A stretch of DNA of 64,000 bases, taken from assembly GCF_030534335.1 (NCBI RefSeq), contig NZ_CP130565.1, positions 1,261,501 through 1,325,500 of the forward strand, in the 5' to 3' direction. Below the pieces are notes generated by a model. The model was not told the origin of the DNA. It worked only from the letters and a program-made list of their open reading frames with translations, and did not search any database. Every line of letters begins with the position of its first letter. Positions within the stretch are counted from its first letter, which is position 1. Below, in pieces: positions 4,831 to 38,551 of the stretch. The stretch is from Marivirga harenae (GTDB lineage: Bacteria; Bacteroidota; Bacteroidia; Cytophagales; Cyclobacteriaceae). The translations under genes were made by a program, and so were the position numbers.

Positions 4831-4850
4831 TCAATTTTCATTTATAAAAT

Positions 4851-9371: not shown

Positions 9372-9381
9372 TAGGTTTTGG

Positions 9382-9411: not shown

Positions 9412-9472
9412 CCCTTAAAGAAATACGCAGAATTCAACACTGCAAATTACAAAAGTATAAATATTTGTGAAA

Positions 9473-12066: not shown

Positions 12067-12072
12067 GCATGT

Positions 12073-12243: not shown

Positions 12244-12342
12244 TTACTTATCCGGTTAAATCTGATAATTATCGAAAACGAGCCATAGCACAAAACAAAA
12301 TTAAGATTTTATCGGATACAAGTTTGAAACAAAAATTTTGAT

Positions 12343-12726
12343 ATGATAACGATTGCAAAAAACGAGCAATATTCTTTAAAAGTAGATATCACAAAAAACA
12401 GAGCTTTCTTAAAAATCAATGGCTTTTGGAGAAACAAAGAAGACATTCCTGGTTACCTACAGGATTGGAATGAGGCTATTAATAAATTATCAAAAGGCTT
12501 TACATTATTAACGGATGCTACTGATATGACTATCCATCCTGGAGATGTGAGAGATGTTCATTCCAAAGCGCAGGAAAAAATAGTAAAAGCTGGTGTCAAA
12601 AAAGTAGCAGAACTGCATGGTGAAAATGTAGCAAGTATGCAATTGGACGGTGTTTCGAATGAATCCGGTATGCCTAAGAAAAATTTTAATGATAGAACGA
12701 AAGCCGAGTCTTGGCTTGATTCTTAA
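12343..12726 (+). CDS. SpoIIAA-like (STAS-type) hypothetical protein
   Basis: A 127-aa soluble protein without a signal peptide. The pattern of short strands followed by a helix (FLKINGFWRN, then FTLLTDATDM and a Lys-rich helix) suggests the SpoIIAA/STAS-like fold found in many small Bacteroidota proteins, but this assignment is from overall pattern and not from a diagnostic motif. The serine phosphorylated in anti-anti-sigma factors cannot be located with confidence. It stands alone and is followed by a hairpin shared with the convergent PLP-enzyme gene. Confidence 0.6.
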   Translation: MITIAKNEQYSLKVDITKNRAFLKINGFWRNKEDIPGYLQDWNEAINKLSKGFTLLTDATDMTIHPGDVRDVHSKAQEKIVKAGVKKVAELHGENVASMQLDGVSNESGMPKKNFNDRTKAESWLDS

Positions 12727-12736
12727 CTTATCAACA

Positions 12737-12765
12737 AAAGGGCTTGGTTTAAACACCAGCCCTTT
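12737..12765. terminator. Hairpin between convergent genes
   Basis: AAAGGGCT...GGT and ACCAGCCCTTT form an 11-bp stem with one bulged T around a six-base loop. It sits between the stop codons of the SpoIIAA-like gene and the PLP-enzyme gene and could serve both directions; neither side has a long T run. Confidence 0.55.
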
Positions 12766-12788
12766 ACTCCCATTCTATTGTAATTGTT

Positions 12789-13688
12789 TTACCTTGAAGA
12801 AAGGTCAAAACCAAAGCGTTCATTAAAACCCGCAATTCCCTGCAGTCCTCCTGAGTGGACAGCTAAAATATGGTCATCAGAAGAAATATTATCTTTCTTC
12901 CACTCCATCATTAATCCGTACATCATTTTGCCCGTATAAATTGGATCAAGGGGTACAGCCGTTTTCTCATAAAACTCAGTAATAAAATCAACTAATTCTG
13001 GCTTCCATTTGGCATAGCCCCCAAAGTGATATTGAGTCATCAACTCCCAATCATGTCTATTATTATTTGTTAAATTGCTCAGTTCCTCCTTGACCCAATC
13101 CCCTTTTAGCACTGAAATGCCTAATACTTTTTGATGCTCTGATTTTCCCTGTATTAAACCCGCCAAGGTCCCACCTGTACCAAAACAGGCACTTATTAAA
13201 TTATAATGCTTCGGAATAAAATCATGTATTTCTGCTGTGCCTACAATCGCTTTATCATTTGTACCACCTTCTGGAATTATGTACGGCTCATTAAACCGAG
13301 TCTTTAACATGCTGGTGAAATCCGGATTGTCTTTGTTTCTATATTCCTCTCGGTTGATAAAGTGGAGTTCCATTCCATATTTTTTGGCAAGATTTAAGGT
13401 GGGATTGCTTACCTCCTCACCTCGAATTACACCGATCGATTCAAAACCACAAGCTTTAGCAGATATAGCAGTTGCTACAACATGATTTGAAAAAGCACCA
13501 CCAAATGTTAATATGTTTTTGAAGCCTTTTAGCTCCGCTTCTAAGAAATTATACTTGAGTTTAAAAAATTTATTACCAGAGGCACCACGATGTATTTTAT
13601 CTAATCGCAAGATATCAAATATTAATCCGGCAAACTGCACTCTTTGAATAGGTACCTCTTCGGGAGCAAAGAAATTTTTGACAGACAT
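12789..13688 (-). CDS. PLP-dependent ACC deaminase / D-cysteine desulfhydrase family protein
   Basis: A 299-aa fold-type II PLP enzyme. Lys40 in GASGNKFFKLKYN is the expected Schiff-base lysine, and TFGGAFSNHVVATA is the conserved Ser-Asn-His loop that binds substrate. SACFGTGGTLAGL is the phosphate-binding loop. Family members deaminate 1-aminocyclopropane-1-carboxylate or desulfurate D-cysteine; motif reading does not distinguish these. The protein is about 30-40 aa shorter than the best-studied ACC deaminases, which favours a desulfhydrase-like or other amino-acid role. It is a single gene, convergent with its left neighbour. Confidence 0.85.
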   Translation of the reverse strand: MSVKNFFAPEEVPIQRVQFAGLIFDILRLDKIHRGASGNKFFKLKYNFLEAELKGFKNILTFGGAFSNHVVATAISAKACGFESIGVIRGEEVSNPTLNLAKKYGMELHFINREEYRNKDNPDFTSMLKTRFNEPYIIPEGGTNDKAIVGTAEIHDFIPKHYNLISACFGTGGTLAGLIQGKSEHQKVLGISVLKGDWVKEELSNLTNNNRHDWELMTQYHFGGYAKWKPELVDFITEFYEKTAVPLDPIYTGKMMYGLMMEWKKDNISSDDHILAVHSGGLQGIAGFNERFGFDLSSR

Positions 13689-13760
13689 AAAGCTAATTTA
13701 TAGGGATTTGATTAAATTTATTCTGTTCAACGGAGATTTGTTGAAATAAAATCAATTTTT

Positions 13761-14891
13761 ATGAGGAAGTATTCCATTTTCATGACTTTAGTAGCGATTG
13801 GGTTTTCATCTTGCATGAAGTCAGTTTCCATTAACACCTTAAGGCCTGCTGATATTAATATACCCAATGAAATCCAATCGATTACCTTAGTGGACCGAAC
13901 TGCTTATGAACGAGATGCCATAGGTGTAATTGAGGGAATTATTACGGGTGAAGGAATAAATGAGGATCAAGATGGAGTAATGGCTATGTTCTCTAGTTTA
14001 CAGAATAGTTTAAGGGTTTCCCCTCGTTTTGATGTGGTCTTGGCATCCGAAAAACTAAGAGGTCAAAATATTTTAGGCTCATTTCCTGATCCATTGGATT
14101 GGAGGCAAGTTGATCAGTTGACTAGAAAATATAATACTGATGCCTTATTGGCTATTGAAATCTTTGACAGCAACTTTATCATTACCAACGGCAAAAGGAA
14201 AAACACCAGAACTGTGGAAGATGCTGATGGCAAAAAAGTAGAAGAAGAATATACAGAATTTTTTGCTGAAGGGGTTGGAAATACTAGAATTGGTGTTCGA
14301 TTGTATGATGCAAAAAACAGAACCGTAATAGATCAAGATATATATACTCAAAATAAAACTTGGGAGGCTTCTGCTACTAGCTTGAAAGAGGCATTAGCTC
14401 AATTAGTTAGTAAGTCGCAAGCCACTAAATACTTAGCTCAATCCGTTGGCAATACCTATGCTAGTAAAATTGCTCCTATGCCCGTTAGAATATCCAGAAG
14501 CTATTATACAAAACCTAAAAAGAATTCCTATCTAAGCAAAGGGGCTAGACAAGCCAGCGTTAATCAATGGGAGTCGGCTATAGAAACATGGAAGGCAGGT
14601 TTAAAAAATGCCTCTGATACCAAAGCAAGTGGAAGAATGGCATATAATATTGCGATCGGATATGAGATATTGGGAGATTTGTTTTTAGCTCATGAATGGG
14701 CTGGAAAGTCATTTGTAGATTATGGTGAGAAAAAAGGAAGAAGCTATGCCAGCCAAATCAATAACCGCATGATTACAGAAGAGATATTGGACGAACAACT
14801 TCAATTACCAGAGCCCAAGTCGCAAACCGAAACTGGAAATAAGGACAAGCTAGATAAGCCCACTATAAAAATCAAGATGAAAGACAACTAG
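13761..14891 (+). CDS. Lipoprotein with C-terminal TPR-like region (DUF6340-like)
   Basis: A 376-aa protein with a lipoprotein signal (MRKYSIFMTLVAIGFSSC, Cys18). The body has an N-terminal alpha/beta part, LVDRTAYERDAIGVIEGI and later VDQLTRKYNTDALLAIEIFD, like the penicillin-binding-protein activator or CsgG-type nucleotide-free folds seen in envelope lipoproteins. A helical C-terminal region (WESAIETWKAGLKNA, MAYNIAIGYEILGDLFLA) looks like one or two TPR units. From memory it resembles DUF6340 of Bacteroidota. Role unknown; periplasmic-facing membrane anchoring is inferred. Confidence 0.8.
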   Translation: MRKYSIFMTLVAIGFSSCMKSVSINTLRPADINIPNEIQSITLVDRTAYERDAIGVIEGIITGEGINEDQDGVMAMFSSLQNSLRVSPRFDVVLASEKLRGQNILGSFPDPLDWRQVDQLTRKYNTDALLAIEIFDSNFIITNGKRKNTRTVEDADGKKVEEEYTEFFAEGVGNTRIGVRLYDAKNRTVIDQDIYTQNKTWEASATSLKEALAQLVSKSQATKYLAQSVGNTYASKIAPMPVRISRSYYTKPKKNSYLSKGARQASVNQWESAIETWKAGLKNASDTKASGRMAYNIAIGYEILGDLFLAHEWAGKSFVDYGEKKGRSYASQINNRMITEEILDEQLQLPEPKSQTETGNKDKLDKPTIKIKMKDN

Positions 14892-14910
14892 ATTAATTAG
14901 AAATTACAAA

Positions 14911-15028
14911 TTAATAATTGATGGTTAGATATATTGGGCTTCAGATAGAATCATTATTCTCTATTAAAGCTTGATCATTATTCAATTAAATAAAAATTTA
15001 ATCATTGACTTTATTCATCAATTATTAA
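14911..15028. repeat. AT-rich inverted repeat between convergent genes
   Basis: TTAATAATTGATG (14911-14923) is repeated as its exact reverse complement CATCAATTATTAA at 15016-15028, a 13-bp perfect inverted repeat enclosing 92 bp; the right arm covers the rlmB stop codon. The enclosed bases carry no ORF. It could fold into a long AT hairpin at the end of both transcripts. Confidence 0.45.
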
Positions 15029-15798
15029 TCATTAATTGCACTCCTTTGTCTGACTGCTTCAAATACTGCGATGGCACAAGAAACAGAAACATTAAGGGAG
15101 GCTATTTTACCGCTCATAGGGATTTTAGCCAGAAAATCAGCGGTTCTTATTAAATCATTGCTGATCCCATCCTCTTCTGAACCAAGAACAATAGCTAAAG
15201 GCTGATTCATTGGTGTATCATAAATTAAATCAGTCCCTTTTTCGGTGCATGCAACTACCTGTAGTCCACTTTTTTGCAAGTACTGCACGGTGTTTTTCAA
15301 ACTGTTTTCCCTACAAATCGGGATATAATGCAAAGCCCCTGCTGAAGTCTTTACCGCATCAGAATTGATTTGCGCACTTCCTTTAAATGGAATTACTATG
15401 GCATCTACTCCCGCACATTCCGCTGATCGAGCAATCGCTCCAAAATTCCGTACATCTGTCACTCTATCCAAAATCAAAATCAATGGGTCTTTCCCTTTTG
15501 CATATGCTTCGTTAATGACATTGTCTAAAGAGGCGTAGCTCACTGCAGAAACCATGGCTATTACACCTTGATGGTTTTTCATCGTGATACGATTCAACTT
15601 TTCAATTGGCACTTTTGTGAAAGGTACTTTTTGTTCTTTGCACAAATCCATCAGCTCACCTACCAATTCATTTCGGACTTCTTTATCAATATAAATATTA
15701 TCCATCTCCTTACCAGCATGAATAGCCTCAAGGATAGCACGGGTGCCGAAAATATAATCTTTATCGTTTAGTTTAGGTCTTTTTTGAAATCCTGCCAT
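15025..15798 (-). CDS. rlmB: 23S rRNA (guanosine-2'-O-)-methyltransferase, TrmH/SpoU family
   Basis: The 257-aa protein has the N-terminal RNA 2'-O-ribose methyltransferase substrate-binding domain (IFGTRAILEAI) followed by the knotted SpoU domain: motif 1 VRNFGAIARSAECAG, motif 2 IVLGSEEDGI and motif 3 IPMSGKIASLNVSVSCAIA. This is the usual RlmB architecture, which methylates G2251 in the peptidyl-transferase loop; assignment to RlmB and not a paralogue is by architecture and length. No neighbour shares its transcript obviously, since a terminator lies upstream of it. Confidence 0.9.
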   Translation of the reverse strand: MAGFQKRPKLNDKDYIFGTRAILEAIHAGKEMDNIYIDKEVRNELVGELMDLCKEQKVPFTKVPIEKLNRITMKNHQGVIAMVSAVSYASLDNVINEAYAKGKDPLILILDRVTDVRNFGAIARSAECAGVDAIVIPFKGSAQINSDAVKTSAGALHYIPICRENSLKNTVQYLQKSGLQVVACTEKGTDLIYDTPMNQPLAIVLGSEEDGISNDLIRTADFLAKIPMSGKIASLNVSVSCAIAVFEAVRQRSAIND

Positions 15799-15879
15799 AG
15801 TCTAGAAATTGAATCGCAAAATTCTTAATCTAATTTGGGAAAAGCTAATAATCTGCTTTTTATAAAATAAATAAGTCAA

Positions 15880-15913
15880 AAAAATAGCCCACAAATATTT
15901 GTGAGCTATTTTT
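15880..15913 (-). terminator. Rho-independent terminator of the DUF2723 gene
   Basis: A near-perfect 17-bp inverted repeat (AAAAATAGC...GCTATTTTT with inner CCACAAAT/ATTTGTGA, one mismatch). On the minus strand it is followed by TTTTTTTGACTTATT, a classic terminator just after the DUF2723 stop and before rlmB. Confidence 0.8.
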
Positions 15914-15931
15914 ATCCGTCTTCATAAAGCC

Positions 15932-18886
15932 TTACATCCTCTCGTAAAGTACCCTTAATTGATCTTGATATTCTATAGCTTGTTCATTCATTCCATATTG
16001 TCTCATAATTTGAACTATCTGACTTAAAATGGCAAAGCTAATTTGTCTTTCTCGGCCCATATATATTAATTCATTGTTCACAAGATACTGGAACTGTTCA
16101 AAGTTTTGCTCCCATAAAATATTGATTATTTCATTGGCTTTTTCTTCATTCCCAGTAGCCAAGTAAACTTGAATATAATCTAAGGCGGTCATATCAAAAG
16201 GTACAACCTCATTTGGAACCTTTTTAATAATAAAATCAACTACTTCAAGCGCTCTTTTTTCATCGCCTTCAGCCACCAATGATTTAGCCAAAGCCGTATA
16301 AACAGACCGATGATTTAAAAAGAAGTTTCTGTAATTTTCATTGTAATAAACATCAGGATCTGTTGTATTTGTGAAATGGAAATCGTTCATCAAATTATTG
16401 TACATCACCTCAGTATTCACAAATTCGGATTGCACATCATCTCTTTCTATCGGCAATAACCTATAAGTCAGTCCTTCTTGTACCACGTATTTACGAAGAT
16501 CCATTTTGATGCCATTCAAGGAGGTAGTATTGAAGTAAATTGGTCTTTCCCAATTATTTTCATTCATGATATCCAAAATCATAAGGTCCTTTTTCTCCAA
16601 CCCATTACCTTTCACATTCCACACCATTCTATCCACCATCATATTTGCCTTATCATCTGGGATTATTCCTAAACTTCTGACATGAGCAGAGTCCACCTTT
16701 AAGCTCAATTGCTTAGACGGCAACATATTATAGCTTCCCACAGATGTTGGCACCTCTAAACTTTTATTGTTGCTTCGGATTAAACTTAGATATCGGTCAA
16801 TTGGAATAGCTCCTTTAATTCCTGCATTTGCCATATAAGGTAAGAAATCATTCTTGCCTCCTTGTGCCACTTGCTCCTCACTAAGTGTTATTGGCAAAGG
16901 CTCAGAATCATAAGCATTTTGACGCATTTGATTAATGTACCAGTCTGTATTGAAGTAGCTCAATACAATAACCCGGACATCAGTCCTGAAACCTTCTACT
17001 TCTTGAACAAACCAAAGGGGGAAAGTATCATTATCACCGCCAGTAAACAAAATTGCATTTGGCTCACAGGAAGCTAAATAATTCCTAGCTGCATCAACTG
17101 AAAAATACCGGTCTGATCTGTCATGGTCATCCCAACCTTCAGAAGCCATAATGCCAGGAACGATCAAACAAACAACTCCGGCTACTGCGCCCGCAACTTT
17201 AGGGTTTTTGATAGCTCTTTCCAATAAAGATGCAACGGCCAATACTCCAAAGCCTATCCAAAAAGCAAAAGCATAATACGAACCGGCATAAATATAATCT
17301 CTTTCTCTAGGTTCAGTAGCCGGTGAATTCAGATAAAGAATTAGTGCAATTCCCGTTAAGAAAAAGAAAAGCCCTACTACACTGAATCCTTTTACATCTT
17401 TTCTATACTGAAAGAAAATTCCAATTAAACCTAAAATGAAAGGCAGCATATAGAAATTATTACGCGCCTTGTTTTCTTTCATGATATCAGGCATTTCGCT
17501 AGTATCCTGAAACATGGTTTTCCAACCCGCCCCTTCAATGTCACTTTCTCTGCCAGCAAAATTCCACATTAAATAACGGAAATACATATGTCCAAGCTGG
17601 TAGCGGAATAAAAATTTTATGTTATCTGCAAAATTTGGTTTTTCATTTTGACGTAAGCCCGTCCACCTTCTGTATTCCTCTGCATGGCCCGGTGCTCCAC
17701 TGTACATTCTAGGAAAAATAGTCGTCCTACTAGGGTCATGTTGTGTCGTGATTTTGTAATCCGTTACTTCATATTCTTCCTCTCCTTTGCTATAGACGGC
17801 ATCACCTCGGTCTTGCGAAACAACCTCTGCATCAAAATATTGTCCATGAACTAAAGGTCTTGACCCATATTGATCTCTATTTAAATAAGACAATAAGGTC
17901 ATTACATTTTCGGGATTATTTTGATCAATTGGAGGATTGTAGTTCGATCTGATTAATACTATAAAGTAAGACGAATAGCCAATCAAAATAAATGTAAACG
18001 CCAATAAGAAGGTATGAAGGGTAACTTTCTCGTTTTTTATAGCATAGTATATACCATAAGAAAGTCCGCCAATTAAAAGTAACGCAAAAATTAAAGCTCC
18101 AGAACCAAAAGGTAGTCCGATAGAATTAATAAAGAAAATCTCAAACTTACCAATTAAGTTAGGTACACCTAAAATAATAAACTGCCAAATCACGATCAGG
18201 ATAGCGCTACTGATAAGTAGTGCAAAAAAGATTCCCTTGAAGGTTACATTTTTATACTTTTTGAAATAGTAAATCAAACCTAAAGCAGGAAGCGCGACTA
18301 TGTTCAATAAGTGAACCCCGATGGAGATTCCAATGATATAGGCAATTAAAATTAGCCATCTATTTTCTGCAGACTCATCTTCAATTAAATCCCATTTCAA
18401 CATGGCCCAAAAAACTAAGGCAATTAAGAATGAAGACATGGCATAAACTTCTGCTTCTACAGCAGACCACCAAAAAGAATCCGAAAAAGTAAACGCTAAA
18501 CTTCCAATAGCACCTGCAGCAAAAATTTTGATCATTTGCCCAGTGTTGGCCTCGCCCACTTTTATCTTCATTATTTTATGGGATAATATATTTATGGACC
18601 AGTACATAAAAAGAATGGTAAACCCACTACTTAAAGCAGATACCAAGTTTACCGCAAAACCAACTGATTCCACATCACTGCTTGCAAACATGGAGAACAT
18701 TCTCCCAATCAAAAGAAACATTGGGGCACCAGCAGGATGCGGAACTTGTAATTTATAAGCACTGGCTATAAATTCTGCACAGTCCCAAAAGCTGGCAACC
18801 GGCTCTAAAGTGAAGATATAAACGGCAGAAGCGATTAAGAAAATAATCCAACCACTGATGTTGTTAATCTTTTGGTATGACATCAT
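15932..18886 (-). CDS. DUF2723 membrane protein, probable O-mannosyltransferase-like (GT117)
   Basis: A polytopic protein of about 984 aa. The open frame reaches 18943, but the double ATG at 18886/18883 begins the conserved start (MSYQKINN, then a first membrane helix), so 18886 is chosen. The DUF2723 signature is SFWDCAEFIASAYKLQVPHP followed by AGAPMFLLIGRMF, with the catalytic-type Asp-Glu pair near the first periplasmic loop as in GT-C glycosyltransferases. About a dozen membrane segments are followed by a soluble C-terminal region with TPR-like helices (residues about 870-980). The human homologue TMEM260 is a protein O-mannosyltransferase, so glycosylation of exported proteins is plausible. 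It has its own terminator. Confidence 0.88.
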   Translation of the reverse strand: MMSYQKINNISGWIIFLIASAVYIFTLEPVASFWDCAEFIASAYKLQVPHPAGAPMFLLIGRMFSMFASSDVESVGFAVNLVSALSSGFTILFMYWSINILSHKIMKIKVGEANTGQMIKIFAAGAIGSLAFTFSDSFWWSAVEAEVYAMSSFLIALVFWAMLKWDLIEDESAENRWLILIAYIIGISIGVHLLNIVALPALGLIYYFKKYKNVTFKGIFFALLISSAILIVIWQFIILGVPNLIGKFEIFFINSIGLPFGSGALIFALLLIGGLSYGIYYAIKNEKVTLHTFLLAFTFILIGYSSYFIVLIRSNYNPPIDQNNPENVMTLLSYLNRDQYGSRPLVHGQYFDAEVVSQDRGDAVYSKGEEEYEVTDYKITTQHDPSRTTIFPRMYSGAPGHAEEYRRWTGLRQNEKPNFADNIKFLFRYQLGHMYFRYLMWNFAGRESDIEGAGWKTMFQDTSEMPDIMKENKARNNFYMLPFILGLIGIFFQYRKDVKGFSVVGLFFFLTGIALILYLNSPATEPRERDYIYAGSYYAFAFWIGFGVLAVASLLERAIKNPKVAGAVAGVVCLIVPGIMASEGWDDHDRSDRYFSVDAARNYLASCEPNAILFTGGDNDTFPLWFVQEVEGFRTDVRVIVLSYFNTDWYINQMRQNAYDSEPLPITLSEEQVAQGGKNDFLPYMANAGIKGAIPIDRYLSLIRSNNKSLEVPTSVGSYNMLPSKQLSLKVDSAHVRSLGIIPDDKANMMVDRMVWNVKGNGLEKKDLMILDIMNENNWERPIYFNTTSLNGIKMDLRKYVVQEGLTYRLLPIERDDVQSEFVNTEVMYNNLMNDFHFTNTTDPDVYYNENYRNFFLNHRSVYTALAKSLVAEGDEKRALEVVDFIIKKVPNEVVPFDMTALDYIQVYLATGNEEKANEIINILWEQNFEQFQYLVNNELIYMGRERQISFAILSQIVQIMRQYGMNEQAIEYQDQLRVLYERM

Positions 18887-19074
18887 AAATAATTGATTTT
18901 TTATAGTAGAGGCGAAAATAAGAAATTTCATTCTATCGGGCATTAGAACGTAGCAATTAATTCAGAATTGCGGTCTTTAATGTTTTTAATTAACATTTTT
19001 AAGAAGCTTTAAGCCGGCTATTATTCTTAAGAATCCCTATATTAGTAAATAGAGACCTTTTAAAATAAAAGACA

Positions 19075-19338
19075 ATGACTGGTGGAATTGGATTTAGTAG
19101 GCAGGCTAGTGACTCATTTAAGCAAAACCGTGCTTTAAGAAATAAGCGAAAATCAATGAATAGCAACCCTTATTCTTCACAGAAGATGGGAGTAAAAAGG
19201 AGTCGTGGTAATTTTGACTTCAATGAAATTCAAAACTTCCGATCCAAAAGAAAAAGAAAGTCTCGGCTTATAAGCATTATTGTTATGCTCGTTTTCTTAA
19301 TGGTTGTCTCCGTTTTGATGGCTTTGATAATGACTTAA
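19075..19338 (+). CDS. Small basic single-pass membrane protein
   Basis: An 87-aa protein with a strongly basic N-terminal two-thirds (about residues 1-63, many Lys/Arg/Ser/Asn, no acidic run) and a single C-terminal hydrophobic helix (LISIIVMLVFLMVVSVLMAL). This tail-anchored layout suggests a cytosolic basic domain at the inner membrane, perhaps contacting nucleic acid or acidic lipids. I do not recognise a named family. Its stop codon overlaps that of the convergent esterase gene by three bases. Confidence 0.7.
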   Translation: MTGGIGFSRQASDSFKQNRALRNKRKSMNSNPYSSQKMGVKRSRGNFDFNEIQNFRSKRKRKSRLISIIVMLVFLMVVSVLMALIMT

Positions 19339-20018
19339 ATCAAAGGCTCCAAATACTTCCAAATCGTTTTGGCTACAATTTTATGGCCTTCAGGTGTTGG
19401 GTGAATTCCATCTGGCTGGTTTAAATCTGCTTCTCCACCTACATCTTTCAATAGAAAAGGAATAAGGTTCACCTCTTTATCTTCAGCTATTTTAGGAAAT
19501 ACCTTTTGAAACTCTTCTGCATAGGCTTGTCCCATATTGGGTGGAACCATCATGCCAGCCAGCAAAACCTTTATTTCAGGGTGAATTGCTCTTACTTTAT
19601 CAATTATCGCACGAAGGTTTTTATTCGTTTCCTCAGGTTTAATTCCTCTTAAGCCATCATTTCCACCTAATTCCAAAACGAATATTTCGACTGGCTGACG
19701 TTTTACAACCCACTCCACACGGGATAGGCCACTGGCAGTGGTTTCCCCACTTACTCCAGCATTGATAATATTATAGTCATAATCCAAAGAATCCAACCTT
19801 TTCTGGATTAAACCTGGAAAAGCTTCTTCAGCCTCTACTCCATATCCTGCTGTCAAACTATTTCCAAAGAAAATGATAGTATTCTTTTGGATCTCTTTTT
19901 GAACTTCCGCTTTTTGTTCAAGAGTTTCAGATTTCTTTTCTGACTTTTTATTGTTGGGTCCACATGCTGTGAGCACTAAAATAAATATAGTAATGATTGA
20001 ATTGAAATATATTTTCAT
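19335..20018 (-). CDS. GDSL/SGNH arylesterase-like lipoprotein (TesA type)
   Basis: A 227-aa lipoprotein (signal MKIYFNSIITIFILVLTAC, Cys19) with an SGNH-hydrolase domain. Block I is FFGNSLTAGYG with nucleophile Ser54, block II contains the glycine of NAGVSGET (Gly91), block III is LELGGND (Asn120) and block V is QPDGIHPTPEGH with Asp203 and His206. This is the arrangement of E. coli TesA-like multifunctional arylesterase/lysophospholipases. The enzyme should act in the periplasm on ester or thioester substrates, but the physiological substrate is not evident. It is divergent from the SMP-30 gene that starts about 70 bp away. Confidence 0.92.
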   Translation of the reverse strand: MKIYFNSIITIFILVLTACGPNNKKSEKKSETLEQKAEVQKEIQKNTIIFFGNSLTAGYGVEAEEAFPGLIQKRLDSLDYDYNIINAGVSGETTASGLSRVEWVVKRQPVEIFVLELGGNDGLRGIKPEETNKNLRAIIDKVRAIHPEIKVLLAGMMVPPNMGQAYAEEFQKVFPKIAEDKEVNLIPFLLKDVGGEADLNQPDGIHPTPEGHKIVAKTIWKYLEPLI

Positions 20019-29817: not shown

Positions 29818-31626
29818 TTAATTCACAAAGTCTCCCCGTAACAGGCGGAATCTTTTTCTAGCTTCTGCTACAAAAATACTACCGGGATACTCTGTTAATA
29901 ATTGTTGATAATATTCCTTGGCTTTATTTTGGTCTTGAATAAGTTCTTCATAAATCAGTCCCATTTCGAATAGTGCATCATCTGTTAATATATCATATGG
30001 CATATCTGTAGCAATTCTCTCCAACAAACTTATCGCATCGGCATAGTTCCCTATTTCCTTATCCCTTTTGGCTTTTAGCCAAAGCAACTCATCAAGAATC
30101 GGATGTTCTTCATATTCTTCTATTAAACTATCCAGAGCTCTTTGTGCCTTTAAATACTTATTTTGATAAAGCAATAAATCGACATCTGCATAGGCGCGAA
30201 GCGCCTTTTGCGTACTATCCAAAATAGTATTGTTTTTTATTAGAATACTTAGGTCCATTGCATCATTAGCGATTTCTCTTCGGGTGGCATTTTTTAAAAT
30301 ATCTAAATGTTCCTGTGCCAATTCAAATTCACCTTTATAAAAAGATAGTTTGGCGTTTTTCAATTTTGCATTTTCGCCCAAATTTTCATTTTTATGGCTT
30401 TTTTCCACTTGATAGTATAAAAGGACAGATTCCCATGGCTGTTCTTTAATAATATAAATATCACCCAAATTCAGTTTAGCGATGGCTACAATATCTTTTT
30501 CTGCATTTGGGAAATCTATAACATTTTGAAGCATATTAATTGCCTTATCATGTTCATTCAAGTAAAAAGCATGTAGCAAAGCTTGTTGTCTGTAGGCTTC
30601 CAATGTATAATGAGAAAGGCCAATCTCATTTACAAGGTTTTTGTATGAAACAACCAGGTTTCGAATTGAGGCTGTATCAATGGGAAAGTGATTCTTTATT
30701 CTTATTTCTTGTGTTTTAATTTTTAATTGCTTTGCTCTTATGTAGTTCATAGAATTTGGGAAATTATCCACCACATAAGAAAAAATCATTTCAGCTATAT
30801 CGTAATCCTCATTTTGATATGCCAGTTCGCCTATTTCCAAACTATTCTCTCCTTCCAATTGATTTCTTTTATCAATAGCTCTGGCCTGCATAAATGCACC
30901 ATAAAAATTTTCTAATTGTAAATTTGCCCAAATAAGAAGATCGGAATACATATCCTTTTCTTTACTGCTTTGTAACTCCTCCATTATTTTTTCTACAAAA
31001 TCATGAAGTTCATCTTTCTCTGTAAGTGAGAGTTGCAGCATATTTTTCACGTATCGTAAATTCCCTGGCCTTTCATTGGCATACTTTAAATACTCAGTAA
31101 CCATTTTATCTTTTTGGTTGGTATATCTATACAATGTAGCCAGCTGAATCGCAAATGCATTTGGATCTCGCATTATTTCACGAGCTGACAAATAAAGCCG
31201 TTCGGCATATTCTCTGTGTTGCTTGTTAATAAAATATTGAGCTGCTGATCTTAAGTTTCCAAGGTTATCTAAGACTCTCGATTCAATTTGCTGGTAAATT
31301 TTTTCAGCTTTTGAGCTATCATTTATAGTAATGTAGAAATCCACAAAATCAACTTGATAATTAATATTTGCCGGAAAAATCTTGTTAATAGATTTCAAAT
31401 ACTTTTCGGCTTCATCATTGTATTGTTTTGCATATAATATCTCAATATAGTTAGTATGAATAAAAGATAGATTTTGCGGTGCTTTTGCCAGCTCTCGATA
31501 TATTGAAATTGCTTTGTCATATTCACCTTCTTGATAATATGCATTAGCCAAACCGATCTTTTGGTTTGATTGTCCATAACTTATTATGCTAGTCAATAAA
31601 AAAAATGAGAAGATCCAATATTTCAT
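29818..31626 (-). CDS. Exported tetratricopeptide-repeat protein
   Basis: A 602-aa protein with signal peptide MKYWIFSFFLLTSIISYGQ and a body made of many helical TPR-like repeats (NAYYQEGEYDKAISIYREL near the start, KAKEYYQQLLTEYPGSIF near the end). There is no other recognisable domain, so it is a periplasmic scaffold, perhaps for envelope or protein-export machinery. It lies alone, directly left of the AT-rich gap with DnaA-box-like sites. Confidence 0.85.
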   Translation of the reverse strand: MKYWIFSFFLLTSIISYGQSNQKIGLANAYYQEGEYDKAISIYRELAKAPQNLSFIHTNYIEILYAKQYNDEAEKYLKSINKIFPANINYQVDFVDFYITINDSSKAEKIYQQIESRVLDNLGNLRSAAQYFINKQHREYAERLYLSAREIMRDPNAFAIQLATLYRYTNQKDKMVTEYLKYANERPGNLRYVKNMLQLSLTEKDELHDFVEKIMEELQSSKEKDMYSDLLIWANLQLENFYGAFMQARAIDKRNQLEGENSLEIGELAYQNEDYDIAEMIFSYVVDNFPNSMNYIRAKQLKIKTQEIRIKNHFPIDTASIRNLVVSYKNLVNEIGLSHYTLEAYRQQALLHAFYLNEHDKAINMLQNVIDFPNAEKDIVAIAKLNLGDIYIIKEQPWESVLLYYQVEKSHKNENLGENAKLKNAKLSFYKGEFELAQEHLDILKNATRREIANDAMDLSILIKNNTILDSTQKALRAYADVDLLLYQNKYLKAQRALDSLIEEYEEHPILDELLWLKAKRDKEIGNYADAISLLERIATDMPYDILTDDALFEMGLIYEELIQDQNKAKEYYQQLLTEYPGSIFVAEARKRFRLLRGDFVN

Positions 31627-32025
31627 ATTTCTTCAAGTTTTAACCTGATGTGTTTTTCCACACACGTAATATTATATTATTTAATTATATATAAACTATT
31701 ATCTATTGTTAATCGTGTTGATATGTTGATAAATACTTAATTTAATTAAATCTTTTCTTCTTTGTATAGAATATGTAGATAAGATTTGAAGATATCCACT
31801 TCTATTTATTTGAAAATTAAATACTTAACATTAAACTGGATTTATGTTAATAAAAAATTGTATTCTACTGTGTGAAATAAATCTGTGGATTAAGTTGTAG
31901 ATATGTTTCAGTTTTTCATACTTATCATCTTAACTTATTCACTTTATCCTCTATCTTATTTATGCTTGTTAAGTTATGTGTATAAACCCTAATTTTTTAC
32001 ACTACTATCCACTTGCTTATCCACA
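31627..32025. other. Candidate oriC: AT-rich gap with a cluster of DnaA-box-like 9-mers
   Basis: The gap between the TPR gene and the Ig-like lipoprotein is very AT-rich and has no ORF. Sites matching TTWTNCACA are TTTTCCACA (31654-31662), TTATACACA on the minus strand (31977-31985) and TTATCCACA (32017-32025, inside the end of the lipoprotein gene). One-mismatch sites are TTTCACACA and TAATCCACA on the minus strand (31869-31877, 31884-31892), TTATTCACT (31935-31943) and TTTTACACT (31995-32003). An extreme A/T stretch at 31667-31697 could be the unwinding element. The parS-like sites and mnmG lie within 5 kb. Gene directions on both sides are the same, which does not support bidirectional replication from here. 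Confidence 0.5.
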
Positions 32026-33830
32026 CTTAAATCAAAGTCTTTGTCTATTATTTCCCAGTTTGCTTTTACAGTTATTTCTTCATTAAAAAAAATATATTCT
32101 TCTGGTTTCTCTAATGTGTAAACATTACCTGCATCCCAAACTTGGTTGTTATTGATGTCTTTCAGAAGCCTTAATCTGTATTTTCCAGGTTTAACATAAT
32201 TGAATTTATAGTCATGTTGATTAACTAAGGTGTCAATGACTTCATATTTATCATTGAGTAATTGGACAACAAAGGGAAAACCAGGATTAATAATTTTTCC
32301 TGTAATAGTCCCATGGTCTTCGATTTTCTTGAAAGATAGTGAAACTTCGGTTTGCTGACTGGAATCGTTCTCAATACCCCTGAAGGCTGATTTTCCGAAG
32401 TAAAGTTGTAATTTTCCAGAGGTGCTTGGAGAAGTATTGACTTGCCTTTCGCCTATATTAGATGTTCTTCTTGAGAGATCTCTTGACATGGCTTCTTTTT
32501 TTGTGTTAGTGTCTGATACGATGGTTGTATCTGGTGAATCATCCTTTAGGGAATCAGTTGCCAATAATTTTTGATGTTTGACAGATAGACTATCAATGAT
32601 ATTATCAATTGTACTTTGTACGATTGTTGTTGTTATTTTAATCTGTTTTTTACTGAAGTTTTGTTCGATGTCTTCTGGACTGAAGGTATATATAGGAATG
32701 CTATCGATTCTTAATTGTATAGAATCATAGATGATCTGATTTACTGGTTTTGAAAGAGTTAGCAGAAATTCTTGTTTTCCAGAGATTAGTTCAGCTTTAG
32801 GTTTATCAATGATCTTTATAGTATCATTTGTCAACCTACTTTCTCTCAGCCTGAAATATACAGAATCTGTTATCTGTGAACCGATAGAGTCAGTCGCCTT
32901 GACCATTAACAATGTAGAATCCGTATCAAAATTGAGCTGTGGAAAGTTTTCTTTGTATACTTTTAGATATTTTGAATTTTCTATGTTATTGGTGTAAATA
33001 TATTGATTAGTATCTCTCGGATTAGTTATTTGGTAATTGACCAAGCCTTTATTGTATTGAATGATGAAGTCTTTGCCAACCGGACTGTACTTTTTTAACC
33101 GTAAAGTATCTTCATTTCTTTTGTAAGTATTAACATCAATTGTTCCTATGCTGTCATATAAGTCGATGATTTCAGTGTGAAAACCAAAGGCTTCATTTTG
33201 AGAATTATTTAGTAAATCATCGTTGTTATCTTGAAAAGTATATAATCTATATTTACCGTTTCTGAGATTCTTCATTTGATACTGTCCATTCTTATCTGTT
33301 GTGGTAAAATATACCGGTTTGCCCTGTCTCAAGTTAGCAGTATCATAAGCAGTGGTGTATAAACCAACAATGTAGCCTTCTTTTACTGTATTGTCTTTAA
33401 GTTTGGTAACAGTCCCGGATATTTGCAAAGAATCAAGGTAAGGTCCAGTACTAAAGGCGATTACAGGATTTTGCCATAGGTTACCCTCAGTGATATCTTT
33501 TAATGCCTTTCTGAAATTGAAGGTGTAAGTGGTAGAGTCTTGCAGTGGCTCCTCTAATTCTATAGTGAGTTCTTGTTTTTTTAAGCTTGCTTCATATTTG
33601 ATATCTTCTCTAGGAGTTATAATTAGTTCTTTATCAAGTTGTTCAAGCTTCATCCACTCACTAAAAAATAGTTTTATTTCTTGGCCCTTAAATTTAATTG
33701 ATTGATTTGCAGGATTTGATTGGTACAACTTGGGAGGTACCTCGTCTTTATCACCGCCTGTGGGTCCTTGTACTGTTGCGCATGCGTAAACGATAATTAG
33801 TGTTAAAAGGGATGCTACTTTTTTAATCAT
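31989..33830 (-). CDS. Lipoprotein with bacterial Ig-like (SbsA/Big_5) domain
   Basis: A 613-aa lipoprotein (MIKKVASLLTLIIVYAC, Cys17; then GPTGGDKDEVPP, a motif shared by this Bacteroidota family). Residues about 30-110 are an SbsA-type Ig-like domain (LFFSEWMKLEQLDKEL, STTYTFNFRKAL). A carboxypeptidase-regulatory-like segment (QYQMKNLRNGKYRLYTFQDN) and a similar C-terminal unit (YVKPGKYRLRLLKDINNNQ) follow. It overlaps the methyltransferase gene by 4 bp and ends the mnmG transcript. Role unknown. Confidence 0.82.
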   Translation of the reverse strand: MIKKVASLLTLIIVYACATVQGPTGGDKDEVPPKLYQSNPANQSIKFKGQEIKLFFSEWMKLEQLDKELIITPREDIKYEASLKKQELTIELEEPLQDSTTYTFNFRKALKDITEGNLWQNPVIAFSTGPYLDSLQISGTVTKLKDNTVKEGYIVGLYTTAYDTANLRQGKPVYFTTTDKNGQYQMKNLRNGKYRLYTFQDNNDDLLNNSQNEAFGFHTEIIDLYDSIGTIDVNTYKRNEDTLRLKKYSPVGKDFIIQYNKGLVNYQITNPRDTNQYIYTNNIENSKYLKVYKENFPQLNFDTDSTLLMVKATDSIGSQITDSVYFRLRESRLTNDTIKIIDKPKAELISGKQEFLLTLSKPVNQIIYDSIQLRIDSIPIYTFSPEDIEQNFSKKQIKITTTIVQSTIDNIIDSLSVKHQKLLATDSLKDDSPDTTIVSDTNTKKEAMSRDLSRRTSNIGERQVNTSPSTSGKLQLYFGKSAFRGIENDSSQQTEVSLSFKKIEDHGTITGKIINPGFPFVVQLLNDKYEVIDTLVNQHDYKFNYVKPGKYRLRLLKDINNNQVWDAGNVYTLEKPEEYIFFNEEITVKANWEIIDKDFDLSVDKQVDSSVKN

Positions 33831-34711
33831 TTTTTGATAACGTAAATAAGACTTGAGAAATTATTGTTATGATTAGTGGCGTAAGTATTGGATTTATAGC
33901 CAGTTATAATAGAATTGATGAAATTATTTTTATTATATTTATATTTATTGCTAAGTAAACTTATGTAGTATGCATCCAGTTTCATGGGATAGACTTTTTT
34001 CACCTTGAGGCCGTGTTTCAACATCAAGGTCTTCATTGTTTCCTGGCTGAAGTGGTACAAGTGTCTTGGTACGTCATAAGCTGCCCATTCTTCGTCAAAG
34101 ACTGAATTCTCGTAACTTTCAATATTTGGTACTGCAACAACAATCTTACCTTTCTCTTTAAGAATTGTTTTAAGTATTTTAATTGTATTGTTTATGTCAT
34201 GGATATGTTCCAAAACATGCCATAAGGTTATAACGTCAAACTTTCTATTTTTAAGGTTCAGATTTTGGATATTATTATGGACTGCCGTTTTTTTATTAGC
34301 AATAGTCCGTGCAATATCATTAGGTTCAATTCCATAGGTTTTCCACCCATTAGCTTTCATGGTTTCTAGAAAATAACCCGTACCACAGCCATAATCTAAT
34401 ATTCTACCTTTTTTCTGTTTTGCTATTGAATTAATTAATTTTCTTTTAGAGGCTAATGCATATTTTCTGGCCAATTTGTACAGAAGGTTAATCGGTGAAT
34501 TTGCTTTATCCGAATGAGAGATATAATCCTCAGATTGATAGTATTTTCCTATATCGTTTTCACTTGGTCTTGGATTTGTAAATTGAAAATTACAATTCTC
34601 GCATATCATTATATTAAAGCTTTCCTTACTAACAGAATGATCTTTAATTACTTTATGGTTTCGTAAATTAGAAGCGCCACAAACTGGGCATTCGTCAAGC
34701 TTTTCGTACAT
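33827..34711 (-). CDS. SAM-dependent methyltransferase with N-terminal zinc-ribbon
   Basis: A 294-aa protein. Cys8/Cys11 (CPVCG) and Cys37/Cys40 (CENC) form a probable zinc-ribbon, followed by FTNPRP, a combination typical of methyltransferases acting on sugars or small metabolites. The methyltransferase domain has motif I GRILDYGCGTGYFLE and later VITLWHVLEHI and IVVAVPNIESYE. It starts 2 bp after mnmG ends and overlaps the lipoprotein gene by 4 bp, so all three are co-transcribed. Substrate unknown. Confidence 0.87.
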   Translation of the reverse strand: MYEKLDECPVCGASNLRNHKVIKDHSVSKESFNIMICENCNFQFTNPRPSENDIGKYYQSEDYISHSDKANSPINLLYKLARKYALASKRKLINSIAKQKKGRILDYGCGTGYFLETMKANGWKTYGIEPNDIARTIANKKTAVHNNIQNLNLKNRKFDVITLWHVLEHIHDINNTIKILKTILKEKGKIVVAVPNIESYENSVFDEEWAAYDVPRHLYHFSQETMKTLMLKHGLKVKKVYPMKLDAYYISLLSNKYKYNKNNFINSIITGYKSNTYATNHNNNFSSLIYVIKK

Positions 34712-34713
34712 AT

Positions 34714-36579
34714 CTATCGTCCTAAGTAAACCATTAGTATTGAAATATCTGCAGGAGTAACACCGCTTATTCTTGAGGCTTGTCCTAAGGTCTGTGGTCT
34801 GACTTTCCTTAGCTTTTCTTTGGCTTCAGCCGACAAAGCTGGAATCTGATTAAAATCTAAAGAATCTTTGATTTTTAAATCTTCAAGATTTTTCATTTTC
34901 TCAATCATTTGATTTTCCTTTTCAATATAGCTTTCATACTTTATATGAATTTCTGACGCTTCAATCACATCTTGGGTGAAGCCGTTTATCATTTGATTCA
35001 AATCATCTTCAATATGCTGAAGTTCCTTGAAGCTAATTTCTGGTCTTTTAAGAATACTATATGCATTAGTTTTTTCTTTTATAGGAGCAGAGTTGATCTC
35101 ACCTAATCTGTCATTAACAATATTAGGTTTGACCTTATGAGTTTTTAGATTGTTAATAAAGGAGTCAATATGGTCTTGTTTTTCTTCTACCTGTTTTAGT
35201 CGTTCATCAGATGCTAATCCAATTTTATGTCCCAAGGGAGTCAAGCGGGTATCTGCATTATCCTGTCTTAATAAGATCCTATGTTCAGCCCTGGATGTGA
35301 ACATTCTATAAGGTTCTTCTGTACCTTTATTTATTAAGTCATCTATCAGTACGCCTATATATGCTTCCGATCTAGATAAGATAAAGGGCTCCTTCTCATT
35401 TATTTTTAGATGAGCATTAATACCAGCCATCAAGCCTTGACAAGCTGCTTCTTCGTATCCAGTAGTTCCATTAATTTGTCCAGCAAAATATAGATTGTCT
35501 ACTAATTTGGTTTCTAAGGTAGTTTTCAGTTGCGTTGGAGGAAAGAAGTCATATTCTATAGCGTATCCAGGTCGAAACATTTTAACATGCTTAAAGCCTT
35601 CAATTTCTCTAATTGCCTTGTATTGGATATCTTCTGGCAAGGAAGTTGAGAATCCATTTACATAGACTTCTACTGTATCCCAGCCTTCGGGCTCCACAAA
35701 AATTTGGTGTCTATTTCTTTCTGCAAAACGGTTGATTTTATCCTCAATAGAAGGGCAGTATCTAGGTCCTAAGCCTTGGATTCTTCCATTAAACATAGGA
35801 GATCGTTCAAAGCCTTCCTCGAGGATTTCGTGAACCAGTGGGTTTGTATAGGTTATGTGGCAGCTTCTTTGTTTTGCTAGCCTTTGCGTTTGATTAGAAA
35901 ATGAGAATTTTTCTGGGAATTCGTCTCCCTTTTGTTCTTCTATTATACTGTAATCAATTGTTCTGCCATCTACTCTTGGAGGGGTGCCTGTCTTCATTCG
36001 TCCCGACTCAAAACCTAGTTCTTCTAATTGTTCAGTTATTCCTTTAGATGCTCTTTCTGCTGATCTACCACCACCGAATTGCTTTTCTCCAATATGAATT
36101 AAACCATTTAGGAAGGTTCCATTAGTTAGTACTACTGCTTTTGCTTTTATTTTTAGACCCATGCTGGTTTCAATACCTACAACCTTATTGTTTTCCACTA
36201 TTATTCCAGCAACCATTTCTTGCCAGAAATCAAGTGTGGGGATTTTTTCCAACTGCAATCGCCATTCTTCCGCAAAACGCATTCGATCATTTTGGGTTCT
36301 TGGACTCCACATTGCTGGGCCTTTGGATTTATTAAGCATCCTGAACTGGATCATAGATTTGTCTGCAATGATACCCGAATATCCACCTAAAGCATCAATT
36401 TCCCTAACTATTTGTCCTTTAGCCACACCACCAACTGCTGGATTGCAAGACATTTGTGCAATCGTATTCATATTCATTGTGGCTAATAGGACTTTTGAAC
36501 CCATATTTGCCGCTGCGGCTGCAGCTTCGCAGCCTGCGTGCCCACCTCCTACTACTATTAAGTCGTAATCTTGAAACAT
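34714..36579 (-). CDS. mnmG: tRNA uridine-5-carboxymethylaminomethyl modification enzyme MnmG (GidA)
   Basis: The frame is open to 36648, but the added residues are only the translated parS palindromes; the ATG at 36579 gives the canonical start MFQDYDLIVVGGGHAGCEAA, so the protein is about 621 aa. With MnmE it installs the carboxymethylaminomethyl group on the wobble uridine of certain tRNAs using FAD, methylenetetrahydrofolate and glycine. Visible are the FAD loop VGGGHAGCEAA, the conserved CNPAVGGVAKGQIVREIDAL block, and the C-terminal helical region ending near ASRISGVTPADISILMVYL. It is a classic neighbour of replication origins. Three parS-like sites lie directly upstream. Confidence 0.97.
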   Translation of the reverse strand: MFQDYDLIVVGGGHAGCEAAAAAANMGSKVLLATMNMNTIAQMSCNPAVGGVAKGQIVREIDALGGYSGIIADKSMIQFRMLNKSKGPAMWSPRTQNDRMRFAEEWRLQLEKIPTLDFWQEMVAGIIVENNKVVGIETSMGLKIKAKAVVLTNGTFLNGLIHIGEKQFGGGRSAERASKGITEQLEELGFESGRMKTGTPPRVDGRTIDYSIIEEQKGDEFPEKFSFSNQTQRLAKQRSCHITYTNPLVHEILEEGFERSPMFNGRIQGLGPRYCPSIEDKINRFAERNRHQIFVEPEGWDTVEVYVNGFSTSLPEDIQYKAIREIEGFKHVKMFRPGYAIEYDFFPPTQLKTTLETKLVDNLYFAGQINGTTGYEEAACQGLMAGINAHLKINEKEPFILSRSEAYIGVLIDDLINKGTEEPYRMFTSRAEHRILLRQDNADTRLTPLGHKIGLASDERLKQVEEKQDHIDSFINNLKTHKVKPNIVNDRLGEINSAPIKEKTNAYSILKRPEISFKELQHIEDDLNQMINGFTQDVIEASEIHIKYESYIEKENQMIEKMKNLEDLKIKDSLDFNQIPALSAEAKEKLRKVRPQTLGQASRISGVTPADISILMVYLGR

Positions 36580-36596
36580 AACTAGATTATATTCTG

Positions 36597-36612
36597 TGTT
36601 CCACGTGGAACA
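36597..36612. promoter_or_regulatory. parS-like site 1
   Basis: TGTTCCACGTGGAACA, an exact match to the ParB-binding consensus TGTTNCACGTGNAACA, extended by one further base pair (G...C) to 18 bp. It lies 17 bp upstream of the mnmG ATG. Confidence 0.85.
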
Positions 36613-36640
36613 CGTGATTTTGATTTTATTAATGCTGAAC

Positions 36641-36656
36641 TGTTCCACGTGGAACA
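36641..36656. promoter_or_regulatory. parS-like site 2
   Basis: The same 16-bp palindrome, extended to a 20-bp perfect palindrome ACTGTTCCACGTGGAACAGT (36639-36658). It starts 44 bp after site 1. Confidence 0.85.
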
Positions 36657-36680
36657 GTAGTTATTCTTTATTGTGTCAAA

Positions 36681-36696
36681 TGTTCCACGTGGAACA
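36681..36696. promoter_or_regulatory. parS-like site 3
   Basis: A third exact copy of the 16-bp palindrome, extended by A...T to 18 bp, starting 40 bp after site 2 and ending 9 bp from the ybeY stop codon. Confidence 0.85.
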
Positions 36697-36705
36697 TCTT
36701 CTGAC

Positions 36706-37134
36706 TTATAATAATTCAATTGCTTTGTTTTCTGCAATTCTCATTTCTTTTTTCTGCTCCTCGGTTTTGTCCTTAAATCCTATAATATGCAATAGACCAT
36801 GTGCCATTACTCTGGCCAATTCAATTTCTTGCTTTGTTTTGAAACTCGCACTATTTGCTTTTATTCGCTCCATACTGATGAATATATCTGCTTCTACAGT
36901 GTTTTGTTCTTCTGAATAATCATTTAGATCAAATGTAATAATGTCAGTATAAGTATCGTGGTTAAGATATTCCAGATTGATTTTAAGTAAATATTCATCG
37001 GAACAAAAGATATAATTAAGCTCAGAAATCTTGTGCTCATAGGATTTAGCGACATTATTAAGCCATTTTTTATGCTTTTGTAATGTCCTTAAATCTATAT
37101 TGTAATCTTCCTTAAAGAAGTAAATATTTGTCAT
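36706..37134 (-). CDS. ybeY: rRNA maturation endoribonuclease YbeY
   Basis: A 142-aa metal-dependent endoribonuclease involved in 16S rRNA 3' end processing and ribosome quality control. The hallmark is MAHGLLHIIGFKDKT; the first two histidines of the zinc site are present, and the third position is Asp rather than the His found in E. coli, a form I associate with Bacteroidota members. Its start overlaps the anti-sigma-like gene stop by one base (TAATG), so it is translationally coupled to that gene. Confidence 0.93.
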   Translation of the reverse strand: MTNIYFFKEDYNIDLRTLQKHKKWLNNVAKSYEHKISELNYIFCSDEYLLKINLEYLNHDTYTDIITFDLNDYSEEQNTVEADIFISMERIKANSASFKTKQEIELARVMAHGLLHIIGFKDKTEEQKKEMRIAENKAIELL

Positions 37135-37535
37135 TAATTGATGTAGAAGCTTAGTTTTACTTTCTTGCCTTCTTCTTCAAAACTTAATTCATCGCTTAGT
37201 GCTTTCATTAAGAATATTCCTCTACCGCCTGGTTTGTCAATGTTTTCTGGCGCAGTCGGATCAGGAAGTGCGTTATAGTCAAAGCCGGTACCTTGATCTG
37301 AAACATTAAATACTATGGTGTTCTCTTCCATAGTTAATGATAGAAATACGTTTTTATCCTTATTGCCTTGGTTTCCATGAATAATAGCATTATTGACGGA
37401 TTCCGTAACAGCAATCATGATGTTGCCATAAATGTCATCATCTAGATCAAATTTTTCTTTTGCATTGTCAATAAAGCTCTCAACTATTCTGATGTTTTCG
37501 CTGAGAGATGGAATACTTATACTGATGTCGCTCAT
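37134..37535 (-). CDS. Anti-sigma-factor-type ATP-binding protein (RsbW/SpoIIAB-like)
   Basis: A 133-aa GHKL-ATPase domain without other domains. The N box is AVTESVNNAIIHGNQG, the G1 box VSDQGTGFD and the G2 box GGRGIFLMKALSDEL. Proteins of this kind phosphorylate an anti-sigma-factor antagonist or bind a sigma factor directly. No obvious antagonist is adjacent; the SpoIIAA-like protein at 12.3 kb is too far away to assign. The start overlaps the DUF4175 stop by 4 bp (ATGA). Confidence 0.88.
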   Translation of the reverse strand: MSDISISIPSLSENIRIVESFIDNAKEKFDLDDDIYGNIMIAVTESVNNAIIHGNQGNKDKNVFLSLTMEENTIVFNVSDQGTGFDYNALPDPTAPENIDKPGGRGIFLMKALSDELSFEEEGKKVKLSFYIN

Positions 37536-38551
37536 TTTATTAGGTTTTCTTTAGATTTTAATCGGTTATAATATTTATTTATTTCATTCTTGTAATATGG
37601 AGTGAAATTAGGTGACACGTTTCTTAGCTGCTCAATTTCTCTTTGCTTTTCTTTAATGTAATCTTCAAATGCATTGGGAATTCTTTCCCTTTCATACTCT
37701 GTTGCAGTCTCTCCTTTGCGTTCGTCCTTTTCCTCTTGTTCGTCCTTAGCTTTCTCTGATTCTAGAAGTCGGGTAACTATTTTTTGTTGCCTTTCTAAAA
37801 GTTGTCGATTTAATCGTTTATTTACTAAGTCTTCCTCGATTTTCTCCATCTCTGCGGAAATGCTACCGCTATTGCCACCGTCTTCCTTACCTTCTTGGCC
37901 GCTCAGTTTTTTTTCAAGCGCTTCCATCATTTTCCTGATTTTAGCTTGTTCTCCGGCTAATTGGCCTAATTGTTCTGAAAACTGCCTTCCGCTTTTTTGA
38001 CCCTTGCTCAATTCTTGTGTTTTTTGATTCAAGGATTCTTGCATTTGTGATAAACTAGGGCTTTGCTGATTGCCTTGCGATTCTTGGCCCATTCCCATCG
38101 CAGATTGCATCTGCATTTGCATTTGTTCTAATACATCGTCCAGCATTAAGGCGAGATTGTTCATAGCAGTCATGGCAAATTGCTGTTCACCAATCGCTCT
38201 GCTATTTTCCCTTTCTCTTAAAGCCTTAACGCTTGCCTCCATAGACTCATTCATTTGGTCAAGCTCTTTATATATAAAGTTTTTTAGTTGAAAAACTCTT
38301 TCTGCTAAACTAGAAAGGCTGTCCTCTACGATTTTAGCATCATCTTGCATAGCCAGTTGCTTCTCTGATAATGTAATGAACCTCGGGTCGCTAGGGTTAA
38401 CCGCTTTAAAGTCATTCATAAGGGTTTCTTGTCGAAATGAAAGCTTCAAAAGATTATCAACAATATTTTTTAAATCATCGATGTTTTCTTGCAACATCTC
38501 CATTTCCATACCCATCTGCATTGAAGACAGCATTTCAGACATCTTCTTCAT
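37532..38551 (-). CDS. DUF4175 protein, C-terminal fragment downstream of an in-frame stop
   Basis: A 339-aa coiled-coil fragment, rich in Met, Gln, Glu and Lys, continuing the frame of the upstream 707-aa ORF. The sense frame runs without interruption from 38779, but the first ATG available is at 38551 (MKKMSEMLSS), so about 76 codons (beginning AEALNKQKELNEEFEDL) lie between the stop and this ATG. If expressed at all, it would need reinitiation or suppression. The end overlaps the ATPase gene by 4 bp, a layout expected of an intact operon. Confidence 0.8.
   Translation of the reverse strand: MKKMSEMLSSMQMGMEMEMLQENIDDLKNIVDNLLKLSFRQETLMNDFKAVNPSDPRFITLSEKQLAMQDDAKIVEDSLSSLAERVFQLKNFIYKELDQMNESMEASVKALRERENSRAIGEQQFAMTAMNNLALMLDDVLEQMQMQMQSAMGMGQESQGNQQSPSLSQMQESLNQKTQELSKGQKSGRQFSEQLGQLAGEQAKIRKMMEALEKKLSGQEGKEDGGNSGSISAEMEKIEEDLVNKRLNRQLLERQQKIVTRLLESEKAKDEQEEKDERKGETATEYERERIPNAFEDYIKEKQREIEQLRNVSPNFTPYYKNEINKYYNRLKSKENLIK

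Follow-up and report, generated by a model that had tools for sequence, protein, structure and literature searches.

The three identical palindromes between ybeY and mnmG are, with a probability of roughly 0.94, the chromosomal parS sites, that is, the centromere, of the cell's ParABS system. Judged by their sequence and surroundings, they appear to form an ordinary ParABS centromere adjoining a likely origin of replication. The sequence of the sites, their uniqueness, their position at the skew minimum, the neighbouring DnaA-box cluster, the presence of parA and parB and the conservation of the block were computed directly.

In the window (the whole stretch of DNA analysed, 64 kb), the 126-bp gap between the last base of the ybeY stop codon and the mnmG start codon is occupied by three TGTTCCACGTGGAACA palindromes (Table 1). 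The preliminary description had reported three exact copies of this 16-mer within 100 bp, a fit to the ParB consensus TGTTNCACGTGNAACA and extra flanking base pairing of up to 20 bp. All of this was confirmed: the three exact copies agree with the consensus, and the pairing including the flanks, which was read by eye from the sequence, extends over 18, 20 and 18 bp. The longest open reading frame of mnmG reaches GTG 36648, inside site 2, and this extension had been regarded as spurious. It does look spurious, since a nearly full-length match to the MnmG family is obtained from ATG 36579. No fourth copy of the 16-mer was found in the window at up to 3 mismatches, and in 100 window shuffles searched at the same threshold the mean number of sites was 0.11, with 0 of 100 reaching three. 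The genome-wide count of parS-like sites, which had been proposed as a check, gave exactly three TGTTCCACGTGGAACA sites at up to 2 mismatches in the single contig of 4,373,458 bp, all in this one cluster, and the reversed sequence of TGTTCCACGTGGAACA gave 0 matches in the whole genome at the same threshold. A first-order Markov model trained on 1.2 Mb of the genome predicts 0.00028 copies per genome, in line with the earlier statement that chance occurrence is negligible. Near ybeY, the window also carries a gene for an RsbW-like anti-sigma kinase and a 339-aa ORF (37134-38551), the latter having no Pfam or NCBIfam match; the two were matched in 26 and 25 of 30 loci, respectively, the window's own locus being counted.

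Table 1. Features of the parS region and of the candidate origin (window coordinates).
Feature	Position	Strand	Remarks
TPR-repeat gene	29818..31626	-	other side of candidate oriC
Candidate oriC	31627..32025	.	AT-rich (21-24% GC); six DnaA-box-like 9-mers TTATCCACA, up to 1 mismatch
DnaA-box-like 9-mers of candidate oriC	31654(+), 31724(-), 31774(-), 31884(-), 31977(-), 32017(+)
Big_5 (bacterial Ig-like) domain gene	31989..33830	-	PF13205; 3' end overlaps DnaA-box cluster
Methyltransferase-domain gene	33827..34711	-	Methyltransf_23; between mnmG and candidate oriC; in conserved block
mnmG (gidA)	34714..36579	-	TIGR00136, 864.6 bits; start is ATG at 36579
Putative parS site 1 (mnmG-proximal)	36597..36612	.	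TGTTCCACGTGGAACA; 18-bp palindrome including flanks; 17 nt before ATG
Putative parS site 2	36641..36656	.	TGTTCCACGTGGAACA copy; 20-bp palindrome including flanks
Putative parS site 3	36681..36696	.	TGTTCCACGTGGAACA copy; 18-bp palindrome including flanks
ybeY	36706..37134	-	TIGR00043, 94 bits; last base of stop at 36706, 9 bp beyond site 3

GC skew was sampled in 60 stretches of 20 kb across the genome and in a continuous piece of 312 kb around the window; skew and DnaA boxes were read over about a third of the genome. In the 60 samples, the cumulative GC skew had its minimum at about 1.24-1.41 Mb and its maximum near 3.36 Mb, and parS lies at 1.298 Mb. In the continuous piece the minimum fell at 1.325 Mb and was broad, its lowest point being 27 kb from parS. 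Comparison with the skew, which had also been proposed, places the cluster at the sampled minimum. Two of the samples (1-20000 and 512000-531999) were characterized by 27% GC, against 33-39% in the other 58, and by strongly negative skew; these GC-poor stretches are possibly acquired DNA. One relative (G022) was sampled in ten 5-kb pieces surrounding its parS, and these gave no clear change of skew sign.

Within the 312 kb, DnaA boxes are most densely packed at 31654-32025, with six boxes in 372 bp, and the best window in the 60 genome samples held fewer, namely 4 per 400 bp. None of 2000 dinucleotide shuffles of the candidate oriC reached six boxes (mean 0.16, maximum 3). With its DnaA boxes clustered in an AT-rich gap close to where the skew is lowest, the segment has the features of an origin; we infer that it is the working one, and it is likely oriC, 4.6 kb from parS, with mnmG, the methyltransferase gene and the Big_5-domain gene in between. 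Therefore, the parS triplet would be copied almost at once after initiation. The earlier expectations that parS lies near oriC and that mnmG is an origin neighbour are both supported, as far as can be judged from sequence. An origin at dnaA or parAB was rejected for this genome, because parB (2.751 Mb) and dnaA (2.821 Mb) lie 1.45-1.52 Mb from parS and from the skew minimum and the three 19-kb stretches around dnaA and parAB contain at most one DnaA-box-like 9-mer per 400 bp.

The absence of parB had been named beforehand as grounds for abandoning the parS reading. The genome does contain one parB match over the family cut-off (TIGR00180, 187.8 bits), directly preceded by a ParA-type ATPase ORF with a KGGVGKTT motif; among the matches listed, all ParA-type profile matches of this ORF are below the curated cut-offs. 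The Noc exception model gave the same ParB a score of 238.1, above the 187.8 of TIGR00180 and below that model's own cut-off of 315. In the passages of PMC7383237 that bear on specificity, R173 and G201 are described as absolutely conserved in ParB and as replaced in Noc by Q and R, respectively. The ParB of this genome has R (in GKNR) and G (in MGHARA) at these two reported parS-specific positions, as counted along ungapped alignments to other ParBs, the Caulobacter alignment itself not being displayed. Its position 184 is K, and K or R is reported there in about 28% of ParBs (PMC7383237, same passages). Eight relatives (G004, G005, G006, G009, G021, G022, G040 and G045) carry parS, parB and dnaA together on a single long contig; in all of them, dnaA and every parB match over the cut-off are separated from parS by some 0.77 Mb or more when the contigs are taken as circular. 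In these eight, the parS-mnmG pair, plus the DnaA-box cluster where examined, stay together, and parAB and dnaA are elsewhere. One genome of the same order (G056, 99% complete) has neither a parB match nor parS at mnmG; in this single case a loss of the ParABS system is possible.

Conservation was followed in 59 genomes from the genus, family and order, the own genome included. The exact 16-mer is present in 30 of them, its copies within one genome always falling inside 1 kb, and the mnmG start is less than 0.5 kb away in 28 of these 30 loci. With up to 2 mismatches allowed, a match occurs in 28 of the other 29 genomes, and for the reversed control in 15 of the 29; therefore, presence at this level says little by itself. 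The position is more telling, as mnmG lies within 0.5 kb in 21 of the 28 fetched loci with such a site, and two further mnmG-linked sites (G030 and G048) were found starting from the mnmG loci. In total, 51 of the 59 genomes have a parS-like site at mnmG. Among the remainder, G046 has only a 3-mismatch site there, no parS-like site was found at mnmG in G037, G041, G050 and G056, and G033 has no mnmG match. Other surroundings were also seen. In G049 (locus L092), parS adjoins ybeY and a DUF7935 gene and mnmG is on another contig, so that parS stayed with ybeY; in G054 it lies between a DUF423 gene and an NYN-domain gene; and in G048 an exact site adjoins an HTH gene at a distance of 25 kb from mnmG, and looser matches occur at mnmG itself. 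Among 21 sequences of at most 20 kb, counting the window, 18 have their densest group of DnaA boxes on the mnmG side of parS, at a distance of 4.3-5.1 kb, although in three of the 18 (L144, L151 and L154) this group consists of only three boxes. The three exceptions are a contig that ends too early (L141), a sequence with no cluster (L152) and one with no mnmG (L153).

The arrangement was also examined in the best 80 of 592 named MnmG relatives, a set that leans to close relatives; most titles in it are of genera that we take to belong to the Cytophagales, and a few are MAGs titled otherwise. A 16-mer with a CACGTG core and up to 3 mismatches, no more than 600 bp upstream of mnmG, was counted as a site. 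Such a parS-like site precedes mnmG in all 80 of these best loci, with two sites in 67, one in 6 and three to five in 7. Where at least 6 kb downstream was available (74 loci), 72 have a densest DnaA-box window between +3.5 and +6 kb relative to the mnmG start, and 66 of the 74 have at least four boxes there and no tie elsewhere.

Across the phylum, 118 genomes of at least 95% completeness were drawn from 30 unequally sampled families, 26 of the 118 coming from one family. An mnmG match was found in all 118 and exceeded the cut-off in 117, the one below it being in G172. The exact TGTTNCACGTGNAACA occurs in 87 genomes, the places of the sites being known for 85 of them (all but G071 and G091; in G141 for one of two sites), and 24 of the 31 genomes without it match its inner 14 bases. 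At least 102 of the 118 genomes, from 25 of the 30 families, have a parS site no more than about 1 kb away from mnmG. Among the matches listed for these 102, the sites are on both sides of mnmG in 26, upstream in 41 and downstream in 35, the one-sided classes being dependent on the pattern, as looser sites can add a second side (e.g., in G163). The other 16 genomes have no parS within about 1 kb of mnmG among the matches listed. Less exact matches adjoin mnmG in four of them (G048, G107, G133 and G087), four (G082, G094, G121 and G165) carry their sites on other contigs, G071 and G091 are the two genomes outside the 85 (with no site in the 20 kb around mnmG of G071), and G090, G104, G112, G138, G147 and G172 have no match to the 14-base pattern. 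The exact site of G121 is found between a proline-racemase gene and a COX15-CtaA gene. Three genomes of family f30 (G061, G066 and G115) have exact parS at two places, one next to mnmG and one some 5 kb downstream of it, and these two places may bracket an origin. With the single box model used, at least four DnaA-box-like 9-mers in 400 bp were found in 1 of 20 phylum-wide mnmG neighbourhoods (G151), and therefore the oriC part of the arrangement is shown only for the closer relatives of the window.

The consequences for the cell can be drawn from established ParABS biology, from which the ParB binding, sliding and segregation steps are taken. ParB, made from its distant locus, would load at the three parS sites with CTP and slide into the flanking few kilobases. 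ParA would then move the ParB complex, and the freshly replicated origin regions would thereby be the first to separate. At the Caulobacter parS cluster, ParB occupies about 10 kb according to a passage of PMC5815017. Since ParB occupies flanking DNA, mnmG, and perhaps the origin too, would fall inside the ParB-covered domain.

The same sites may also have a regulatory role, which is compatible with a ParABS centromere. ParB would then repress mnmG and the genes following it, or set their timing, and segregation would be coupled in a conserved manner to tRNA modification; this combined proposal is unlikely. A ParB effect on mnmG expression is possible, since the sites occupy the gap before the gene and, in the part of PMC5521831 concerned, P. 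aeruginosa ParB is reported to repress genes adjoining parS3 and parS4. A site falls inside the last 100 nt before mnmG in 79 of 81 sequences (the named set and the window), and in 71 of those 79 a distance of 13-20 nt separates the end of the proximal site from the ATG. Such a nearly fixed distance in the window's relatives, along with the phylum-wide presence of parS on one side of mnmG or on both, is consistent with a dual role. However, the tight spacing may only reflect short operon gaps and the avoidance of coding sequence, and repression of an mnmG promoter is at odds with the families that have downstream sites alone. A more far-reaching version, slightly more doubtful still, is that the Bacteroidota centromere is built around mnmG and was retained there while parAB and dnaA moved, so that ParB occupancy could couple mnmG expression to origin copying. 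If this coupling were true, a tRNA-modification enzyme would be part of a segregation-timed circuit.

It is very improbable that the palindromes are mainly an mnmG operator bound by a regulator, or an RNA leader hairpin controlling translation, with the ParB match being secondary. Their place in the ybeY-mnmG gap and the nearly constant spacing just described would suit such an element, as would the mnmG leader, which folds unusually well (-42 kcal/mol, z -7.0). If transcribed, the minus strand of the gap (36577-36705) would form this very stable fold with a stem adjoining the mnmG start codon. However, a strong leader fold is a likely by-product of repeated palindromes, and an RNA element was rejected on this ground and for want of an Rfam match, none reaching the gathering score in 31400-37200. 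Moreover, families f29, f30, f37, f38 and f40 have no upstream site by the pattern used, and none was found within 1.5 kb upstream at 3 mismatches in 14 of 14 f40 genomes, three f30 genomes and two f37 genomes. The downstream-only sites of several families cannot be an mnmG leader, which argues against this reading, and the single site in 6 of the best 80 of 592 loci indicates that a long hairpin is not kept. Of 81 loci, 21 have a promoter-like TAnnTTTG box ahead of the sites, compared with 3 of 81 for the reversed control; it was not counted for or against, because most of these boxes, in sequences read by eye, seem to lie within the last part of the ybeY coding frame. The possibility that the copies arose by chance or belong to a repeat element with no relation to ParB can practically be dismissed, as no support for it was found, the expected number per genome is minute and the position is conserved in 25 of the 30 sampled families.

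If the palindromes are the ParABS centromere, parS beside mnmG would be a simple marker of both centromere and origin for a phylum in which dnaA, normally used for this purpose, can mislead. parS can evidently remain linked to a single gene even though parAB and dnaA are about 1 Mb or more distant, and this is relevant to the question of what fixes the position of a bacterial centromere. Livny et al. (2007) reportedly gave the founding survey of parS sites. In Pseudomonas, parAB is located with the origin, whereas in the present genome a distance of 1.45-1.52 Mb separates parB and dnaA from parS and the likely origin. The Pseudomonas chromosomal ParABS system shares the 16-mer, in a tight cluster adjoining the origin, and a table in PMC7022226 gives three origin-near parS sites of TGTTCCACGTGGAACA for P. 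putida. A location of parS near the origin is described as the rule in a passage of PMC7333895. For gut bacteria, including B. caecimuris, passages of PMC10197239 describe parS clusters and skew as marking the origin, not always at dnaA; this is like the present case, with the difference that mnmG is not mentioned in those passages. Origins were predicted beside mnmG by Ori-Finder in Mariniflexile litorale (PMC11278836) and Algorimicrobium bowmanii (PMC12843772), which belong to another family, and the relevant passages do not mention parS. In Mariniflexile, the position of dnaA did not fit the skew, and a figure legend of the same paper labels mnmG as ter, contradicting its own text (PMC11278836, in the parts concerned). 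No paper tying parS to mnmG in Bacteroidota was found in searches of an open-access collection. Summarizing, parS near the origin, parS-marked origins away from dnaA and origins predicted beside mnmG are already known from the passages cited, and what the present sequence comparison appears to add is the phylum-wide tie of parS to mnmG and its separation from dnaA and parAB, the tightness of the tie being the less expected part.
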